DNA of 11,629 nucleotides from Deltaproteobacteria bacterium (GTDB lineage: Bacteria > Desulfobacterota > DSM-4660 > Desulfatiglandales > HGW-15): assembly GCA_019308525.1 (NCBI GenBank), contig JAFDIC010000093.1, forward strand, positions 1 to 11,629, written 5' to 3'. Made by a program: the position numbers and the translations under genes. The first letter of the stretch is position 1, and each line of letters opens with the position of its first letter. Shown piece after piece: positions 1,280 through 9,984 of the stretch. The notes beneath the pieces were generated by a model. It worked only from the letters and a program-made list of their open reading frames with translations, was not told where the DNA came from and ran no database searches.

Positions 1280-1310
1280 CAGGGGGAGGGACTTCCTCCT
1301 TCCCTCTTTC
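1280..1310. terminator. Candidate intrinsic terminator between convergent genes
   Basis: The 47-bp gap between the convergent gcdA and serK-like genes holds an inverted repeat, GAGGGA at 1286-1291 and TCCCTC at 1301-1306, with a 9-nt loop. On the minus strand it is followed within about 7 nt by seven T residues (1279-1273), so it looks better suited to stopping minus-strand transcripts. On the plus strand only a short TTT follows. The stem is short, so this is a moderate call. Confidence 0.4.
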
Positions 1311-1320
1311 CCTTCACTGC

Positions 1321-2211
1321 TCATCTCCTGTCCTGAAATACCAGCAGGGGTTCGTCGTAGGTACGTCCTTTGAAGTCCCGGCCGGGCTCCAGTCTCATCA
1401 CTTCTTTTCTGTCCAAAAGTTCCCTGACCCTAGCGCTTATTTCCTCCAGGGCGATCTCTTCTTTGAACCATCCTATGGGGACATTCAAATTCACAGGCCT
1501 GACCGGAATCAGGTGGCGAGTCGACTTTGGGGCAAATATCTTTCCCGCCATTACGGCCTCGACCACCATCTCCTTGGTAATCCTGGGGGTCAAGATGATG
1601 ATCTCCTTGTCTCCCAGACAGGCAGGAAAGTCCTCCTCGTACACTTGACGACAGGGGACATATTCAAGCTCGACACCCGTCTTGATGAGTTTCCTCTGTA
1701 TGTCTTCCACCTTGTCGTAGGCACTGACTGCGTCCTTCACTACATCTCCGTCAAATATTACGCTTGCAAAGAAATCTCCCTGTTGAATACCGCAAGAGTA
1801 AGGATTTTCCAGCATTCTTTCCTCCAGGGATTTCAAGTCAGCAACCCGGCACAGGGTGCCGCCTGTCTCTTTGACCATGTCTGTCACTATGGCAAGGCTC
1901 TCGACCTTGCGAAGCAATCTGAACCAGTACCTGAGCTTGATATCTTCGTGGAAATAGTCCACCCTGCAAACGGTTATGAATCTCAGCCCCAGTTTTCTAA
2001 AGGCAAAGGTGCGGTGGTTTCCGTCCAACACAATGTTATTTCTCTCTATGATGACCGGGTCTTCCAGTGTCCCGCAACTTCTCAGTTCGGAAACCAGACC
2101 CTCCATGAACTCATTGACAACCCGTTCGTGCAAGAAAAGGGAATCTATTCCTGTAACCCCCAGCTCCAGTTCAAATCCCTTATTTCTTATGATCAATCCT
2201 CGTTTACACAT
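1321..2211 (-). CDS. SerK/SbnI-family free L-serine kinase-like protein (ParB/sulfiredoxin fold)
   Basis: Probable kinase that phosphorylates free L-serine to O-phosphoserine. Known members are archaeal ADP-dependent SerK and ATP-dependent staphylococcal SbnI. Residues are numbered from the ATG at 2211 (296 aa). The N-terminal domain has the pair HE at 28-29 and VLDGNHR at 62-67, then VDYF at 84-87. These line up with the catalytic Glu30 and Asp69 regions of Thermococcus SerK, which I recall from memory. Further on, KIFAPKSTRH (224-233) matches the conserved C-terminal SPKTTRH segment of SerK. There is no helix-turn-helix, so it is not a partition protein. About 45 extra residues follow the last shared segment. 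An in-frame GTG at 2259 would start 2 nt after the upstream stop and add 16 residues; neither start has a good ribosome site. ATG is chosen because it places the catalytic Glu as in the family. It lies directly downstream of the GcvT-SHMT fusion, which would supply serine. The nucleotide donor cannot be read from the sequence. Confidence 0.72.
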   Translation of the reverse strand: MCKRGLIIRNKGFELELGVTGIDSLFLHERVVNEFMEGLVSELRSCGTLEDPVIIERNNIVLDGNHRTFAFRKLGLRFITVCRVDYFHEDIKLRYWFRLLRKVESLAIVTDMVKETGGTLCRVADLKSLEERMLENPYSCGIQQGDFFASVIFDGDVVKDAVSAYDKVEDIQRKLIKTGVELEYVPCRQVYEEDFPACLGDKEIIILTPRITKEMVVEAVMAGKIFAPKSTRHLIPVRPVNLNVPIGWFKEEIALEEISARVRELLDRKEVMRLEPGRDFKGRTYDEPLLVFQDRR

Positions 2212-2261
2212 ACCCTCACTCTGAAAAAGATCACAATTCTCCGCCCCGCTAGGAACCACAG

Positions 2262-4913
2262 CTAAAGAAAATCCCGCAATTTGAACGCAAGATCCTGGAA
2301 TTCTTCTTCCTTAAAGCAAAACTTGAGATCCTGGAATCGGCCCCTCAAGGATTTGACTCTTTCCCGGACGTTTTTGCGCTTTTTTATCACTTCGTGCATG
2401 AGCCCGGCCAACTCTCGGAAACCGTCCTCCTCCATGCCGAAGCGGGTCATCTCCGCCACGCCGAGTCTCAAATAGCCCGCCGCTGAGAAACTCTCTTCCT
2501 CTGGCCCGGCCTGGAAATTACAAACAATATTGCTTTCTTCCAGCCTCCTTGCTATCTCCGGACCAACTCCGTAGCCGACCCTTACAAGCACCTGATGTGT
2601 CTCGGTAAAATCCAGGGACGGATCACCCGCAACCTCCAGTCCCTGATCCCACAGGGCCCTGGCAAAGGCCTTGGCATTTCCTATGACCTTCTCCTGATAT
2701 TCATCCTTGAAATGGTTCATCTCATATGTGGCCATCAGCAAGCCCAGGAGAGTCCCCAGGTGGTGATTGGACACCAAACCCGGGAAAGCGCGACGTTGCA
2801 CGGCCTCCCAGAGTTCGTACTTCTCTTCTTCTTCCTTGAATCGGCTCCCTATTATCCCCCTCTGTGTTCCGAAGAATGTCTTGTGTGTAGAACCCGTTAC
2901 CAGGTCGGCACCCTCCTTGAAGGGCTCTTGAAAGGAGGGCCCGATCAGCCCGAAGACATGGGCCATGTCATAAACAATGACCGCATCTATCCCCATATCA
3001 TCTAGAAATTGGCGGATTTCCCCTATTGGTTCCCTGTGCAAGATGACGCTCTTTCCGAAAACTACCAGCTCCGGCCTGAACTCATCGATCAGCTCCAGGG
3101 TCGCCTTGACATCCACCTTGTAAGGATTCTCGTGCATCACCGGAAAATTGATCACGGCCGGCCGCTCTGTCCTGGGGTCCCGGGCGACAAAGTCCCTCAG
3201 CGCCCCCATTGGCTGAGCGCTGAGGTGTCCCCCTTTGCCGATATGGTGATTCATTACCTGGCGAATTCTCCGTGGTTCACTCTTTCTGTCTGCACGGTTT
3301 ATGTAGTCCACCATTGCACTGAATACCGTAATATTTGCCGTCTGTCCGCTAATGAGTCTCGTCTCCGCCTCCTGAGAACCCATGAACACGCGCATCTCCT
3401 GTGCCAGGAGCTCTTCGCACTCCCTGATAAAATCTGTTCCCTGATAGTAATAGATATCCGTATCATAGAAGGCCTTCAGTTTCCTGTGTTCGGCGTACCG
3501 AAAGGCCGGATCCATTACTGAGAGGAGCCTTGACATGGGAGATATGGTCATCTCTGAAGGGATCAGGTTGACACACTCCTTCTGCCTCCAGCGTGTATTT
3601 TCCACGGCCTTCCCAAGCAACAGGCCGACCTTCTCGACTGTTTCACCCTCTGCTCTCCTCTTGGGTGGTGTCTCAAAATCGAAGAGGATGGGTCTCGAAT
3701 ATGGAGGCGCTTCACTCCGCAGATGGTAAGGTACGACCAGGGCTTCCACCCGCTTCCCCCGGATATCTATTTCCACCCTGTCCTCATCCACTATATCGCT
3801 GTCGATATATCCAAGGCCGATAGACCTGAGAATCCCTTCATCCCTAAAAACACAGTCAAGCCCCTCGCCCTCGGTTTTCCACATGGGAACCATGGTCCCG
3901 CTCGTAACGTATCCCACGTGTTTGCTCTCCTTGAAGATCCGGGCTCCCGGGCGGGCGACGCCTCTTCCTGAAACTGCTATGGGGTGTACAATCCGTGGCA
4001 GGTACCGGGTCATTGAATAGTCCCGCGCAAGTATTCTCTTGTAGGCCTCGAATTGCTTAAGAAGGGCGTCCTTCCCAATGAATTGTCCTTTCAGGGGAGA
4101 AAAACTTAATGCGATTCGAGCGCCTGGAGAGGCCAGGAGAGGGATCTCCCGCCCCTCGGGGTCTGTGCCGAGTTCGTGCCCATAAAGGGCCAAACCAGCT
4201 TCCAACCTCAGGGTATCCCGGGCCCCAAGGCCCACAGGGTTGGCCCCATGTTCAGTCAGCAGATCCCATAGCATCAGCCCGTGTTCACGGCGCGCAAACA
4301 ATTCAAAACAAATGGGTTCCCCGGTGTAACCCGTTCTTGCGATCATCACCCGGGCTCCGGAAATCCCGACCACCCTTACAGAGTTTCTGAAGGGTTCCGG
4401 GAGGTAACCTGAATCAATTATCCTCAGCAAAATCTCCCTGGATTTAGGGCCTTGGAGGGAAAGCATAACAATCTCTTCTGTTTGATCAGCAATTTCCAAG
4501 TCCTTGTATGCCTTTGAATTGTCCAGCAGATAATCCCAATCCTTCTCAGTGTTGGCCGCGTTGACCACCAGGAGATATTCGTCTTTCTTGAAGCGGTAAA
4601 GATATGCATCATCAAGGGCGCCCCCGTTCTCATTTTGAATAAAGGTGTACTGGGCCCCAGTGATCCTCGGGTCCAGGGCCTCTGCATTGTTGCTAAGCAT
4701 GCGTTGCAGGAAAAGTAATGTGTCATTTCCTCTGAAAGTGAACCGTCCCATGTGGGAAACGTCGAAAAGTCCGGCCTCTCTCCGAGTCAAAAGGTGTTCC
4801 GTGATTATCCCCGTGGGGTAGAAAATGGGCATTTCCCATCCCCCAAACATCTCTATCTTTGCTCCCAAGGAAAGATGCCTCTGATAAAACAGCGTTCTTC
4901 TTGGCTCACCCAT
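2262..4913 (-). CDS. Bifunctional GcvT (aminomethyltransferase)-serine hydroxymethyltransferase fusion
   Basis: This 883-residue protein joins two folate enzymes. Residues 1-410 are glycine-cleavage T protein, which moves the aminomethyl carbon from H-protein to tetrahydrofolate, giving 5,10-methylene-THF and ammonia. Its marks are GGWEMP (24-29), NGGALDD with the catalytic Asp at 101-102, VVNAANTEKD (116-125), GYTGE (195-199), GLGARDTLRLEAGL (228-241) and GYVTSGTM (334-341). Residues 425-865 are a divergent PLP-dependent SHMT, which converts glycine plus methylene-THF to serine. Its marks are IPSE with Glu454, SGQTAN (522-527), GGHL with His563, DMAH (649-652), STHK with the PLP lysine at 678, and YLRLG with Arg816. 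A short linker (411-424) joins the halves, with no stop or frame change. The ATG is preceded by AAGGAG at 6-nt spacing. The gene heads a two-gene unit with the SerK-like gene 50 nt or less downstream. H- and P-proteins must be encoded elsewhere. Both active sites look intact, so bifunctionality is likely but inferred. Confidence 0.9.
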   Translation of the reverse strand: MGEPRRTLFYQRHLSLGAKIEMFGGWEMPIFYPTGIITEHLLTRREAGLFDVSHMGRFTFRGNDTLLFLQRMLSNNAEALDPRITGAQYTFIQNENGGALDDAYLYRFKKDEYLLVVNAANTEKDWDYLLDNSKAYKDLEIADQTEEIVMLSLQGPKSREILLRIIDSGYLPEPFRNSVRVVGISGARVMIARTGYTGEPICFELFARREHGLMLWDLLTEHGANPVGLGARDTLRLEAGLALYGHELGTDPEGREIPLLASPGARIALSFSPLKGQFIGKDALLKQFEAYKRILARDYSMTRYLPRIVHPIAVSGRGVARPGARIFKESKHVGYVTSGTMVPMWKTEGEGLDCVFRDEGILRSIGLGYIDSDIVDEDRVEIDIRGKRVEALVVPYHLRSEAPPYSRPILFDFETPPKRRAEGETVEKVGLLLGKAVENTRWRQKECVNLIPSEMTISPMSRLLSVMDPAFRYAEHRKLKAFYDTDIYYYQGTDFIRECEELLAQEMRVFMGSQEAETRLISGQTANITVFSAMVDYINRADRKSEPRRIRQVMNHHIGKGGHLSAQPMGALRDFVARDPRTERPAVINFPVMHENPYKVDVKATLELIDEFRPELVVFGKSVILHREPIGEIRQFLDDMGIDAVIVYDMAHVFGLIGPSFQEPFKEGADLVTGSTHKTFFGTQRGIIGSRFKEEEEKYELWEAVQRRAFPGLVSNHHLGTLLGLLMATYEMNHFKDEYQEKVIGNAKAFARALWDQGLEVAGDPSLDFTETHQVLVRVGYGVGPEIARRLEESNIVCNFQAGPEEESFSAAGYLRLGVAEMTRFGMEEDGFRELAGLMHEVIKKRKNVRERVKSLRGRFQDLKFCFKEEEFQDLAFKLRDFL

Positions 4914-4976
4914 TGTTTCTCCTTGTTCTCACTTCCTGGAAGGATCATAAAGCTAAGGAATATTTGCGACACTGAA

Positions 4977-5003
4977 ATTATAGGATAGAAGCAGTTATGT
5001 CAA
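4977..5003 (-). promoter_or_regulatory. Sigma70-type promoter for the gcvT-SHMT/serK-like unit
   Basis: On the minus strand a perfect -35 TTGACA (5003-4998) is followed after 15 bp by a perfect -10 TATAAT (4982-4977). An alternative -10, TAATTT at 17-bp spacing, overlaps it. The predicted transcript would start near 4970 and leave a leader of about 55 nt ending in AAGGAG before the ATG at 4913. That leader is too short for a glycine riboswitch. Confidence 0.6.
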
Positions 5004-5211: not shown

Positions 5212-6021
5212 CTACTGCTTGATCATTGCCCCTTGCTCCAGCCGCTTGCCGTCAATGGTGTAGAGGGCATCCAGCATGGCAACCTGGAAGCTTCCCGGCG
5301 CCTTTGCCTTTTCTGCCGCCACTTCCCCTGCAAGGCCGAAGTATGCGAGGCCGGCGGCACACGCCCGGGCAAGGTCATCATCTACCGCCAGAAATGCCCC
5401 GATGATCACGGTAGCCGTGCAGCCGGTACCGGTAACGTAGCCCATCAACTCGTGGCCGTTATGGACCATGTAGATCTGACCACCGTAGGTTACCAGGTCA
5501 ACTTTTCCTGTAATCGCCAGGGTGGTATCAAGCTCCCTGGCCAATGTGATGGCGGCATCTGCCGCCTCATCCACGCTGTGCAGGGAGTCGACTCCTTTGG
5601 TCCTTGAATCCTCCCGTGCCAGCGAGAGCACTTCTGAAGCATTCCCCCGAACCACTGAAATATCCAGTTCCTTTATCAGTCTCTTGGCAGCTTCGGTCCG
5701 GAGGCCGGTAGCACCTGATCCAACGGGGTCCAGGATAATGGGTATGCCCATTTCATTGGCTTTCTTGCCTGCCTTCAGCATTGAATCTATCCAGTATGGT
5801 GTCAGGGTCCCTATGTTCAATACGAGGGCGCCGGCCAGGGATACCATTTCTTCAACCTCTTCCAGGGCATGGGCCATTACCGGAGAGGCCCCACACGCCA
5901 AGAGCGCGTTGGCGGTGTAATTCATGACCACAAAGTTGGTGATGTTGTGAATCAAAGGCTTCTTTTCCCGGATCACATGAAGGTCCTTCGCTGCTCTTTT
6001 TGCAAGGCTCTGATCAAACAT
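5212..6021 (-). CDS. thiM: Hydroxyethylthiazole kinase ThiM
   Basis: ThiM phosphorylates 4-methyl-5-(2-hydroxyethyl)thiazole with ATP, a thiamine salvage step that feeds ThiE. Residues are numbered from the ATG at 6021 (269 aa, normal for the family). Marks are PLIHNITNFVVMN (22-34), the substrate-binding N-terminus; ILDPVGSGAT (96-105); VRGNASE (124-130); and VTGTGCTATVIIGAF (196-210), with the conserved ribokinase-like anion hole and Cys201. The frame is open for 25 more codons upstream, but those residues do not resemble ThiM, and GGAGG lies 9 nt before the chosen ATG. It is the last gene of the thiE-thiL-thiM run, separated from thiL by 93 bp that contains a hairpin. No thiD is visible beside it, so HMP-PP must come from elsewhere in the genome. 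Confidence 0.95.
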   Translation of the reverse strand: MFDQSLAKRAAKDLHVIREKKPLIHNITNFVVMNYTANALLACGASPVMAHALEEVEEMVSLAGALVLNIGTLTPYWIDSMLKAGKKANEMGIPIILDPVGSGATGLRTEAAKRLIKELDISVVRGNASEVLSLAREDSRTKGVDSLHSVDEAADAAITLARELDTTLAITGKVDLVTYGGQIYMVHNGHELMGYVTGTGCTATVIIGAFLAVDDDLARACAAGLAYFGLAGEVAAEKAKAPGSFQVAMLDALYTIDGKRLEQGAMIKQ

Positions 6022-6054
6022 TCTCTCTTTCCTCCATTGAAGCGTGATGGCTTT

Positions 6055-6074
6055 GCAGAAAGTCCAATTTCTGC
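6055..6074 (-). repeat. Perfect 7-bp hairpin in the thiL-thiM gap
   Basis: GCAGAAA and TTTCTGC are separated by 6 nt and form a perfect hairpin 34 nt upstream of the thiM start. No T-run follows on the minus strand, so it is not a standard terminator. It could be an mRNA stability or processing element, or it could reduce thiM expression relative to thiL. Function is inferred only. Confidence 0.35.
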
Positions 6075-6114
6075 GTTCCCCGGTGACCTTTTTCAATCCC
6101 TGTTTAGCCGGGAG

Positions 6115-7140
6115 CTATTCCGTGAAGTGATCCCACCCGCCAGGGACAAGCGGTTCTCGAGATCCATCCTCAAGGATCAATACTATGCCCCTCGATGAAT
6201 CCACGATCCTTCCCACCTCTGTCACAGGGTCACTGGTGATTTCTGCCAGGAGGCCTTTGATTTTGGCAACGTTTTCAGGAGCACAGGTTATGATAAGTTC
6301 ATAGTCATCACTCTCCTGCAACACCAGGTCATGAGGATCCATCCCGAAACCTCTTGCCGCAACCCGCAGTTCGTCACATACCGGCAAACTGTTCTGGTAC
6401 AACTCGGCCCCCACGCGGCTCTCTTCGCAGATATGCCCCAGATCCCCGAGAAATCCGTCACTTGTATCAATCATGGCAGACGCATAGCCGGAATCCGCCA
6501 CGGCTTTGCCCTCAAAGGCCCTGTGTGAGGGAGCCGTGTAAGCCCGGACCAGGGGGTGATCCCTGAGGTCCTCCCCGTCCCCGGCCTGAAGAAGGAGCTT
6601 CAATCCTGCCGCAGACCGTCCGGGAAACCCTGTTACGAGGATGGCGTCTCCTTCCCGGGCAGTGGATCTCCGCAATATCCTTCCATGTTCAACCTCCCCG
6701 ATCAACGTGATATCAATGAAGAGGCCGTCACCCGTCTTTGTAAGGTTTCCTCCCACTATGCACGCACCAAAGGGATTGAGCTCGGTCAGAAAACCCCGGA
6801 ACATGTCTTCAACATAGTCTACGGGGGTTTCTCCCTTGAGGCCCAAAGAAACAAGGGCATACAAGGGATGGCCGCCCATGGCGCCTATATCGCTGATATT
6901 CAGGGCCATGGCCCTCCGTCCCAAATCCAGCGCCGAGATCTTGTCCGGCAGGTAATGGCGTCCCTCTACTATGCAATCGCAGGTCACAAGTATTCTGAAC
7001 CCTTCCCTGGGCTTGAGGCATGCTGCGTCATCGCCGATCCCAACTTCCACGCCAGGAGCACTCGCCCCTTGCCTTCTAACCAACGAGTCTATTCTCCCTA
7101 TCAAGCCGAATTCACCAATTTCCCTCAGGGTGTCACTCAT
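6115..7140 (-). CDS. thiL: Thiamine-monophosphate kinase ThiL
   Basis: ThiL uses ATP to convert thiamine monophosphate to thiamine diphosphate, the active cofactor. The protein is 341 residues, the usual length for this PurM-like family. Marks from the N-terminus are GEFGLIGRI (9-17), VGIGDDAA (33-40) with metal/ATP-binding Asp37 and Asp38, the CDCIVEGRHY segment (54-63) at the usual TD-LVEG-HF position, ALNISDIGAMGG (79-90), GGNLTKTGD in the middle, and MIDTSDGFLGDLGHI in the C-terminal half. The GGN variant replaces the common GGD; I recall GGN in other bacterial ThiL, so loss of function is not implied. The ATG overlaps the thiE stop by 4 nt (ATGA), which indicates translational coupling. 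Confidence 0.95.
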   Translation of the reverse strand: MSDTLREIGEFGLIGRIDSLVRRQGASAPGVEVGIGDDAACLKPREGFRILVTCDCIVEGRHYLPDKISALDLGRRAMALNISDIGAMGGHPLYALVSLGLKGETPVDYVEDMFRGFLTELNPFGACIVGGNLTKTGDGLFIDITLIGEVEHGRILRRSTAREGDAILVTGFPGRSAAGLKLLLQAGDGEDLRDHPLVRAYTAPSHRAFEGKAVADSGYASAMIDTSDGFLGDLGHICEESRVGAELYQNSLPVCDELRVAARGFGMDPHDLVLQESDDYELIITCAPENVAKIKGLLAEITSDPVTEVGRIVDSSRGIVLILEDGSREPLVPGGWDHFTE

Positions 7141-7781
7141 TTCCGGTTTCCCTTCCCGTCAAGGCCCATGGCTTGATAGAGATCACGCGTGGCCCTCCTC
7201 GGGTCTTCCTGGCAGCAGACAGCCGATATCACCGCAATCCCGTAAGCGCCGGCCGACAGCACTTGCTCGACATTCTCGGGTGATATACCGCCAATAGCAA
7301 TGATCGGCAAGGATAGGGAGTCCACAACCCTCCTCAGGATTTCCACCCCGCTGACAGGGCCTGCATCATCCTTTGAGGAGGTAGGAAACACGGGCCCGAA
7401 GCCGATATAGTCTGCGCCCTCCCTGAGACACTTCTCCGCTTCTTCAAAGGTAGCAGCAGAACCTCCGATGATACCATCTCGACCGAGCAATTCCTTTGCG
7501 AGGGGGATTGGGAAATCTTCCTGTCCGAGGTGTACTCCGTCCGCTTTGGCTGCAATGGCAACATCTATCCTGTCATTGACGATAAAAACCACGCCTGCTT
7601 CTCTACACAATGTCTTCATCTCCCGGGCTACGGTGATCATCTCTCGTGTTGAACCCGTCTTTTGTCTCAGTTGAATAGTGTCCGCACCACCCTCAATGGC
7701 GAGACGGGCAAGCTCGATATGGGAAAACCTCGACTGTAATACCGTATCGGTTAATACGTGCAACTTTCCTATCCTTTTCAT
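7137..7781 (-). CDS. thiE: Thiamine phosphate synthase ThiE
   Basis: ThiE joins HMP-PP with thiazole phosphate to make thiamine monophosphate, releasing pyrophosphate. Numbered from the ATG at 7781, the protein has 214 residues, a typical TIM-barrel length. Visible motifs are QLRQK (37-41), VNDRIDVA (68-75), DGVHLGQEDFP (81-91), GFGPVFPTSSKDDA (127-140), IAIGGI (161-166) and AVISAV (183-188), all standard ThiE phosphate- and pyrimidine-binding loops. A GTG three codons upstream would extend the frame, but GAGGTG sits 6 nt before the ATG and makes that the better start. That ribosome site overlaps the stop of the Nudix gene, and the end overlaps thiL by 4 nt. The gene is therefore embedded in the operon. 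Confidence 0.95.
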   Translation of the reverse strand: MKRIGKLHVLTDTVLQSRFSHIELARLAIEGGADTIQLRQKTGSTREMITVAREMKTLCREAGVVFIVNDRIDVAIAAKADGVHLGQEDFPIPLAKELLGRDGIIGGSAATFEEAEKCLREGADYIGFGPVFPTSSKDDAGPVSGVEILRRVVDSLSLPIIAIGGISPENVEQVLSAGAYGIAVISAVCCQEDPRRATRDLYQAMGLDGKGNRK

Positions 7782-7791
7782 AACAAACACC

Positions 7792-8745: not shown

Positions 8746-9455
8746 GGCTTGGGTTGAGGAAAATAATCAGTGTCCCGGAGCTCGACCACACTGTTAATGA
8801 TGAGATCGGGTCCTTCCCTTTTCAGGGCCTCATAGGGATCCAGGCCGCTTAATACACCGATCGTACCCATCCCGGCCGCCTTACCTGCCCTGATGTCCGC
8901 CGTAGTGTCTCCAATGTATATGCTGCTTCTTGGTTCAATGTCCATCCGTCTCAGACATTCCAAGAGCGGATCAGGAGCCGGTTTCCTCCTCCGGGCATCC
9001 TCCGCTGTGATAATCGTGTCAAAGAGGTCGGCTATGCCGGATTGCCGTAAAGGATACAGCTTCACTTCCATCTGCTTCCTTGGTGTAGTCGTAGCAATGC
9101 CCACTTTAACTCCTCCGGCCTTCAGATCCTTCACCACCTCTCCAACGCCAGGGAACAGGCTTACATGGTCTCGAAAGATCCGGGGGTACAACGCATTTAT
9201 GACATTCCAGGCCTTTTCTATCAGGGCTCGTCTCTGGCTCGCATCTCCGGCAGGCAAGACGTCCTTCCAGTTGAAGTCCCCGTCCAATACGGCACCAAGG
9301 ATCTTTTCCCTGGATACGGGAGCGACACCAATCTCCTCGATCGTAATCTCCATAATCCTGAAATAGGCCTCTATGGAGTCTATGAGCGTCCCGTCCAGAT
9401 CAAACAGAATGGCTTCCAGGGAATTTTTCCGGTCTTCGTTCATGTCACTCGCCAT
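8742..9455 (-). CDS. HAD-superfamily phosphatase, Gph/PgmB-like
   Basis: Haloacid-dehalogenase-type phosphohydrolase of 237 residues with all four motifs: FDLDGTLIDS (18-27; nucleophile Asp19, acid/base Asp21), ATTTP (121-125) as the motif II threonine region, RKPAPDP (157-163) with Lys158, and GDTTAD (182-187) carrying metal-binding acids. A helical cap lies between motifs I and II, as in phosphoglycolate phosphatase and beta-phosphoglucomutase relatives. The start is taken at the ATG at 9455, which shares one base with the riboflavin kinase stop (TGATG); a TTG one codon earlier is unnecessary. The substrate is unknown. Its neighbours suggest a phosphorylated vitamin or nucleotide, but HAD enzymes of this type are promiscuous, so phosphoglycolate phosphatase is an equally fair label. 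Confidence 0.88.
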   Translation of the reverse strand: MASDMNEDRKNSLEAILFDLDGTLIDSIEAYFRIMEITIEEIGVAPVSREKILGAVLDGDFNWKDVLPAGDASQRRALIEKAWNVINALYPRIFRDHVSLFPGVGEVVKDLKAGGVKVGIATTTPRKQMEVKLYPLRQSGIADLFDTIITAEDARRRKPAPDPLLECLRRMDIEPRSSIYIGDTTADIRAGKAAGMGTIGVLSGLDPYEALKREGPDLIINSVVELRDTDYFPQPKP

Positions 9456-9877
9456 CAATTCTTCTTTATTCGAACTGTCAGTACGTCACCGTCTTTGAGG
9501 TTCAAGGCGATCCTCAGTCTTAGGGGGGCGATGATTTCCAGGACATTCTTTCCGTGAACCCGCGCGTCCTCTTCCGGTATTATTATAGCGCCCCGTACGG
9601 TGCCCATCCTAACCGGGAGTGTTTGCGCGGTACAGTACTCCTCGTTCGGAGGGGTCAAAAGTATGGAACCCTCACCCTTCACGCTCTCTAAGAGTTCCAG
9701 CACGTCATCCCCCACCTCCAGATTCAACGTGCCGGGATAGGGCCTGAAACCCAGCTTTTCAAGACACTGCCGTTGGACCCAATCCAGCCGGGTAAAACAA
9801 GAGGCCTTTCTGACGCCACCTACGACCTTACCCCTTACCAGCAGCTCTCTCCCTGTACTTGCGTCGCCCGCCGCCAT
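9455..9877 (-). CDS. ribK: CTP-dependent riboflavin kinase, DUF120 family (archaeal RibK type)
   Basis: Probable riboflavin kinase making FMN, using CTP rather than ATP in characterised archaeal members. From the ATG at 9877 it has 140 residues, close to the 136 I recall for Methanocaldococcus RibK. Shared features in order are VRGKVVGG (14-21), LGFRPYPGTLNL (42-53; the Thr and Asn of GTLN bind metal-nucleotide in the family), LPVRMGTVRGAIIIP (87-101), EIIAPLRLR (114-122) and NLKDGDVLTVRI (126-137). The usual GLGEGRYF segment reads GGVRKASCF here, the most divergent part. An in-frame GTG at 9976 would add 33 residues with no family resemblance and has no ribosome site, so the ATG is preferred, although its own purine-rich site is poorly spaced. 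The stop overlaps the HAD start by one base. Bacteria normally use unrelated RibF, so this gene points to transfer from archaea or to a bacterial DUF120 branch. Confidence 0.82.
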   Translation of the reverse strand: MAAGDASTGRELLVRGKVVGGVRKASCFTRLDWVQRQCLEKLGFRPYPGTLNLEVGDDVLELLESVKGEGSILLTPPNEEYCTAQTLPVRMGTVRGAIIIPEEDARVHGKNVLEIIAPLRLRIALNLKDGDVLTVRIKKN

Positions 9878-9932
9878 TTCCTTCGGGTCTTCCTTCAAAC
9901 CATTTCTTTTTTCGAAAATCCCCTGGTGATGC

Positions 9933-9949
9933 TGGCAATTCCCTTGCCA
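9933..9949 (-). repeat. Perfect 6-bp hairpin upstream of ribK
   Basis: TGGCAA and TTGCCA flank a 5-nt loop in the 107-bp stretch between the ferredoxin stop and the preferred ribK ATG. No T-run follows it on the minus strand. If translation began at the GTG at 9976, the hairpin would lie inside the gene. It may therefore be a leader element or chance. Confidence 0.25.
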
Positions 9950-9984
9950 TCTGGTCCCGCTTTGAAGATCAAGCACCAGCGGGA

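Follow-up and report, generated by a model that had tools for sequence, protein, structure and literature searches.

Kinases that act on free serine, and routes that run through phosphoserine, are already known. In the excerpts of Makino 2016 (PMC5120207) on which we draw, Thermococcus kodakarensis SerK (TK0378) belongs to a serine assimilation route, phosphoglycerate dehydrogenase (PGDH) and aminotransferase genes lie near serK in the Desulfurococcales, and assimilation of serine to 3-phosphoglycerate is proposed; the same excerpts report, as of 2016, no clear-cut SerK homologs in bacteria. In Staphylococcus, SbnI is a free serine kinase for staphyloferrin B (according to excerpts of PMC12704722). 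Here we consider an 11,629-nucleotide stretch of DNA from an uncultured deltaproteobacterium (contig JAFDIC010000093.1 of assembly GCA_019308525.1; "the window" below), in which a gene fusing aminomethyltransferase (GcvT) to serine hydroxymethyltransferase (SHMT) is followed by a serK-like gene. We lean toward the interpretation that the two genes form the core of a conserved module leading from glycine to phosphoserine, with the phosphoserine most likely going to 3-phosphoglycerate.

Two observations from sulfate reducers bear on this interpretation. The excerpted account of the reductive glycine pathway of Desulfovibrio desulfuricans (PMC7547702) lists the T protein and SHMT separately, and suggests that serine leaves by deamination or transamination. 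The reactions are the same as those considered here, involving glycine, methylene-tetrahydrofolate and serine, but in the window one polypeptide combines the T protein with SHMT, and a kinase gene is linked to it. In Desulfovibrio vulgaris, a phosphoserine phosphatase was not found and serine synthesis was called unresolved, according to excerpts of PMC5764234 and PMC7311316. We found no description of a SerK coupled to glycine cleavage through a GcvT-SHMT fusion, a weak absence, as the search covered open-access text only.

The fusion and the putative kinase in the window

The elements of the locus are as follows.

4977..5003, minus strand: sigma-70-type promoter box, TTGACA-15-TATAAT, read from the sequence, exact at 12 of 12 positions
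2262..4913, minus strand: open reading frame (ORF) for the GcvT-SHMT fusion, 883 amino acids, from Pfam, NCBIfam and solved-structure alignments
1321..2211, minus strand: SerK-like free serine kinase (predicted), 296 amino acids, ATG start, from NCBIfam, PDB, a structure model and motifs
1282..1305, strand not assigned: terminator-like stem between serK and a carboxyltransferase gene, whose ends converge, from a pattern scan

An earlier note on this DNA had named the promoter, the fusion and the SerK-like gene, and all three are present. From base composition, 0.004 exact TTGACA-TATAAT boxes with spacers of 15-19 nucleotides are expected in the window, and one is found, at 5003-4977; its spacer of 15 nucleotides is short, and the box is absent from the output of a scan for spacers of 16-18. 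AAGGAG precedes the ATG of the fusion, and a gap of 50 nucleotides separates the end of the fusion from the ATG of serK (2211) downstream of it. Since terminator-like patterns occur in the window at chance level (12 found, 11.7 expected), the stem at 1282-1305 is weak evidence for a terminator.

The start of the kinase gene requires a comment. The ORF list opens it at GTG 2259, while ATG 2211 gives a protein of 296 amino acids beginning MCKRGLIIRNK. The latter is the likelier start, because a relative 88% identical to the window kinase (P0122) has the same length and a matching start point (MSKRQMILRSE). No Pfam family matches the window kinase. Its best NCBIfam model is SerK (E 6e-20), and in the PDB it matches SerK 5x0b by sequence (E 1e-14). 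By its predicted structure it belongs to the free-serine-kinase fold of SerK and SbnI: for an AlphaFold2 model built from 24 sequences (predicted local distance difference test 87.6, predicted template modeling score 0.84), the nine best fold matches in the PDB (E from 6e-16 to 4e-12) comprise five entries for SerK, three for SbnI (ranks 7 to 9) and 1vk1, a protein of Pyrococcus with the title conserved hypothetical, and ParB domains are far behind. The resemblance to SbnI is one of fold, as the kinase reaches only 22 bits against the NCBIfam SbnI model (cut-off 350) and, in contrast to the staphylococcal case, no siderophore genes were found among the window genes scanned against Pfam and NCBIfam.

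The active-site motifs are shared with T. kodakarensis SerK, along with the predicted fold. HE, DG[NH]HR, a Trp and TRH are kept in 26 of 26 kinase sequences, those of the window and of all 25 loci with a full-length kinase in the order discussed below, which were selected on similarity rather than motifs (partial SerK sequences from G434 and G407, L074-L076, were excluded here and from the tree; G and L numbers are our handles for genomes and loci). In a separate count, the catalytic Glu and the DG.HR and TRH motifs are present in 24 of 24 sequences. The invariant Glu aligns with Glu30, which is mutated (E30A, E30Q) in the SerK structures 5x0e, 5x0g, 5x0j and 5x0k. The window protein is thus a likely kinase for free serine, presumably with a nucleotide as donor. 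Families of this kind have been recognized before, some JGI records being named L-serine kinase (ADP).

The fusion matches GCV_T (7e-71), GCV_T_C (7e-10) and SHMT (2e-32), all above the Pfam cut-offs, with the aminomethyltransferase at about residues 5-396 and the serine hydroxymethyltransferase at about 435-870. The GcvT half also exceeds the NCBIfam cut-offs (TIGR00528, 241.7 against 235.85 bits; NF001567, 301.9 against 300), and the SHMT half has 113 bits against a cut-off of 27 for PF00464. The closest solved SHMT structures are 4bhd and 4uqv, from Methanocaldococcus jannaschii, followed by 7k34, an entry named threonine aldolase. Three residues of the SHMT half align with 4bhd, namely the Lys that binds pyridoxal phosphate (PLP), the active-site Glu and the Arg for the carboxylate, and in the GcvT half the catalytic Asp aligns with 1woo.

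Gene neighborhoods in relatives

Genome content and linkage were counted in relatives of the window's genome, mostly drafts in which contig ends cut some neighborhoods. SerK is carried by 27 of 85 genomes in one order of Desulfobacterota (the order of G003), and in 16 of the 27 the gene immediately upstream of serK is the fusion, while 24 have the fusion somewhere in the genome. The gene orders are fusion, serK and a SerB-like gene (13 genomes), fusion and serK (3), and serK and SerB-like (11), with adjacency called from tblastn of flanking sequence some 1.5 kb long and the G434 arrangement spanning two contigs. When genome contigs were scanned with the kinase alignment, 22 loci were obtained, 11 of them close (L001-L011), and 7 of these 11 have the fusion, or as much of it as the contig contains, directly upstream; the two scans overlap, 10 of the 11 close-locus genomes being also among the 27. 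On these two counts we rejected the idea that the pair is an accident of one genome, and its conservation as neighbors elsewhere is supported. The fusion and serK are an isolated two-gene unit within the window, as the earlier note had it, but in relatives they are often part of a longer cluster with the SerB-like gene and sometimes lpd or an aminotransferase gene.

Of the 85 genomes, 39 have the fusion, complete or in part (40 matched; G455 was dropped, having 40% identity in the GcvT part only, and the fragments in G451 and G454 were counted). Both genes are present in 24 genomes, SerK alone in 3, the fusion alone in 15 and neither in 43 (Fisher p 6e-8, with kinship not corrected). On a tree of 19 SerK sequences, the window and 18 of the 25 loci with rows picked by two motifs, the fusion-adjacent label needs 3 changes against a shuffled mean of 6.4. 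The deepest split, a weakly supported one, has fusion-adjacent members to either side of it, so that the arrangement could be an old one for this family. The window kinase groups with L066 (G001) with support of 100/100, and L066 has the gene order of the window, with thiM upstream and the carboxyltransferase gene downstream. Within the phylum the full-length family is narrow, because a sample of 395 genomes holds four full-length SerK, all in the same order.

The SerB-like protein, encoded downstream of serK in 24 of the 27 genomes, has about 415 amino acids with two ACT domains and a HAD domain, and in four proteins scanned reaches 93-121 bits against TIGR00338, under the cut-off of 144. Motif I reads FD[VL]ES instead of FDMDS, and motif IV reads GDGS, with the ND of GDGAND lost, in 17 of 17 genome loci (from 17 of the 19 genomes carrying the protein, G285 and G418 having no locus); the Asp-x-Glu is kept in all 8 rows of our SerB-like alignment (A2). 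Canonical SerB from the same genome set has FDMDS and GDGAND in 6 of 6 cases. At 92 bits or more, the SerB-like protein is found in 19 of 23 surveyed genomes with SerK and in none of 10 that have the fusion and no SerK. Because motif residues are lost and the distribution follows that of SerK, it is probably no ordinary phosphatase; it may be a sensor of serine or phosphoserine, or a slowed phosphatase or phosphotransferase. The change of Asp to Glu resembles that in ThrH, a phosphoserine:homoserine phosphotransferase. Homoserine as acceptor was therefore considered, and is a possibility only: ThrB (TIGR00191) is above cut-off in none of the 33 genomes, and since this holds with or without SerK, the missing ThrB does not single out the SerK genomes. 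Many of the best weak ThrB matches lie near serA, and our guess is that they are ispE.

In 5 of the 23 SerK genomes (G285, G434, G435, G437 and G458), a gene for a class V aminotransferase comes just after the SerB-like one. Class V aminotransferases are found at E<=1e-20 in 23 of the 33 genomes, none above the BhcA cut-off, and the distant SerK loci L012 and L016 adjoin genes for PGDH and a similar aminotransferase.

Glycine cleavage genes are found around the fusion even where serK is not. We fetched 20 fusion loci in which SerK is absent or elsewhere in the genome, and recognized gcvH, gcvPA or gcvPB by eye near the fusion in 11; for nine of these a GcvP match lies a few kb away on the same contig. 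The other nine loci show no gcv genes nearby, and several are at contig ends. Where serK does follow the fusion, gcvPA is upstream on the same contig, 4-10 kb from serK, in G003, G007, G429, G430 and G458. L150 (G427) has lipB, gcvH and a gene for an Lrp/AsnC-type regulator on one strand, and lpd, the fusion, serK and the SerB-like gene on the other. The assignment of the fusion to glycine cleavage is supported by these arrangements. The presence of gcvP, which the earlier note had raised for its own genome, was confirmed in relatives: GcvP is above cut-off in 31 of the 33 genomes (G001 included), 21 of 23 with SerK and 10 of 10 without, G002 counted on one weak match only, and is below cut-off in G005 and G418.

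A second form of the kinase family is also linked to glycine cleavage. A ParB-like SerK relative of about 140 amino acids (with HE, DGHHR and PKTS[RK]H) is encoded directly before gcvH in 8 of the 8 genomes showing that side, namely seven loci and L047; at a ninth, L138, the contig ends there. Loci for this form include the following.

L135, 6693-7115: ParB-like relative of about 140 amino acids
L136, 6559-6981: the same
L139, 6162-6584: the same
L142, 2392-2937: the same

The nine genomes with this form have no full-length SerK match (in the 395-genome sample), and a protein search gave 477 homologs of it. In some of them a double-ACT protein is encoded nearby; one at L135 has 55 bits against 267 for the GcvR model. 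These facts could be taken to mean that the SerK-like protein is no kinase but a regulator that binds nucleotides and acts on glycine cleavage, with the ACT-HAD neighbor, which looks inactive, as its partner. We consider this improbable, as the catalytic Glu, DG[NH]HR and TRH are kept in all 26 full-length sequences, the fold is nearer to SerK and SbnI than to ParB, and the aminotransferase and PGDH neighbors imply metabolism.

Possible fates of phosphoserine

In the glycine-to-phosphoserine module as we picture it, the GcvT half would take the aminomethyl group from lipoylated GcvH to give methylene-tetrahydrofolate, the fused SHMT half would add the methylene carbon to glycine to give serine, and the SerK-like enzyme would phosphorylate free serine with a nucleotide donor to give O-phosphoserine. 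The phosphoserine would most likely be converted to phosphohydroxypyruvate and then 3-phosphoglycerate, as proposed for Thermococcus, because the SerB-like gene and sometimes the class V aminotransferase gene come next in relatives; cysteine synthesis is a second possible sink. We infer the direction, the donor, the substrates and the sinks from the families and their neighbors. The earlier note's sequence from glycine through serine to phosphoserine agrees with the kinase fold and with the gcv and lpd linkage of the fusion, and its interpretation as a whole is supported in part.

Gene content was surveyed in 33 genomes, 23 with SerK and 10 with the fusion and no SerK. SerA is above cut-off in 28, comprising 20 of 23 with SerK and 8 of 10 without, so the proposal that the module bypasses the usual route through 3-phosphoglycerate is not supported. 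Canonical SerB is above cut-off in 3 of 23 and 3 of 10, so serABC looks incomplete at serB; of the gaps in serABC that the earlier note had looked to, the one at serB is seen in these relatives and the one at serA is not. The alpha subunit of serine deaminase is above cut-off in 4 of 23 and 1 of 10. With the deaminase rare, SerA common and an aminotransferase linked, an exit of phosphoserine to 3-phosphoglycerate fits.

The frequent absence of canonical SerB could also be read the other way round. SerA and an aminotransferase would make phosphoserine, SerK running backwards would replace SerB and pass the phosphate to a nucleotide, and the fusion would split serine into glycine and one-carbon units. 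The abundance of SerA beside the scarcity of SerB agrees with this, as do the lost catalytic motif residues of the linked SerB-like protein and the phosphatase gap described for D. vulgaris. As a general replacement for SerB, SerK is rejected, since canonical SerB is under cut-off in 7 of the 10 genomes without SerK as well; with SerB rare in both groups, a reverse-running SerK is not the simple answer. A phosphate monoester is, moreover, a poor donor for synthesis of ATP or ADP. We regard the reverse direction as unlikely.

Cysteine was the sink proposed in the earlier note. Candidate serine acetyltransferases scoring 100 bits or more (one alone above cut-off) occur in 15 of 23 genomes with SerK and 7 of 10 without, so most SerK genomes have no need of phosphoserine for cysteine; 9 of the 15 with SerK also have a second CysK. 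Such candidates are lacking in 8 of the 23. A CysM-like synthase fused to cysteinyl-tRNA synthetase (CysRS), of about 775 amino acids, was read at two loci (L175:1477-3801 and L177:76-2403; both domains were named for L175), and a frame of more than 700 amino acids surrounds a cysteine synthase match in 25 of the 33 genomes, some of them without acetyltransferase candidates. In five of the eight (G001, G003, G417, G427 and G429), no cysteine synthase match was obtained other than a protein of fusion size; G243 has such a protein together with a second synthase cut by the contig end, and G002 and G437 have neither an acetyltransferase candidate nor a cysteine synthase match. If the CysM-like domain used O-phosphoserine, SerK could supply cysteine, as Thermococcus SerK does in the excerpts of PMC5120207, and the archaeal SerK locus L014 adjoins cysK. 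This explanation strikes us as somewhat less probable still than a reversed SerK, as fusion-sized proteins are also found in 6 of 10 genomes without SerK and use of phosphoserine by the two proteins read is putative. The CysM-CysRS fusion, of which the excerpted portions of PMC5424206 make no mention, could couple cysteine synthesis to tRNA charging.

Several observations weigh against the conversion of glycine to phosphoserine that we favor. The kinase has 71.4 bits against the cut-off of 380 for NF053625, the equivalog model of archaeal ADP-dependent SerK, and because this cut-off is not reached we name the clade "SerK-like". The SHMT half is under the NCBIfam PRK00011 cut-off (232 against 335 bits) and also matches a fluorothreonine transaldolase model (145 bits, cut-off 650). 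At least 6 of 12 genomes checked encode canonical GlyA as well, which gives them an SHMT besides the fusion. In 11 of the 27 SerK genomes serK does not adjoin the fusion, and the surveyed gene contents differ little between genomes with and without SerK. If the SerB-like protein were still a phosphatase, its place beside a kinase could give a futile cycle. Finally, the sole single-contig genome, G418, has no GcvP match, with masked stretches present. That genome (L089, L144; 5.09 Mb) contains SerK, the SerB-like protein, canonical SerB and the fusion.

Surrounding genes and implications

The window contains other genes near the pair. Upstream of the promoter, thiM, thiL and thiE are consecutive at 5212-7790 and are ordinary thiamine genes, with the end of thiM 298 nucleotides upstream of the fusion-serK unit; a carboxyltransferase-family gene (PF01039) occupies 2-1273. 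Identity between the window and L001 is uneven across these neighbors (carboxyltransferase gene 98%, thiM 84%, SHMT 81%, GcvT 72%, serK 65%), perhaps reflecting transfer, recombination or strong conservation. At 9455-9976 there is an archaeal CTP-dependent riboflavin kinase domain (PF01982, 96 bits) on this bacterial contig, under the NCBIfam cut-offs. Elsewhere, genes for a RACo-type protein and a ZIP transporter lie upstream of serK at L004:321-2752, and similar-looking genes occur in the same order in L011.

Like the T. kodakarensis route, the module would tie together glycine, serine and phosphoserine, and possibly 3-phosphoglycerate and cysteine. It differs in that the bacterial clade is far under the cut-off of the archaeal model and is linked with a GcvT-SHMT fusion as well as a degenerate SerB-like gene. 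A broader proposal is that a new SerK clade provides glycine cleavage, or the reductive glycine pathway, with an exit, by way of the aminotransferase and PGDH, to 3-phosphoglycerate that bypasses pyruvate and is gated by a SerB paralogue turned sensor after losing its phosphatase site, and that serine phosphorylation became tied to glycine cleavage, by origin or by spread, on more than one occasion, as suggested by the kinase-like form of about 140 amino acids that precedes gcvH in other Desulfobacterota. We put this forward tentatively, and on balance doubt that all of it will hold.

The locus would extend free serine kinases to a bacterial lineage, beyond the 2016 report of no clear-cut bacterial homologs in the cited excerpts of PMC5120207. 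The conserved pair of kinase-like and SerB-like genes beside glycine cleavage in other Desulfobacterota offers concrete candidates for the question of how some sulfate reducers make and use serine. Should the forward route be true, bacteria would have a connection from glycine cleavage, or from the reductive glycine pathway, to 3-phosphoglycerate.

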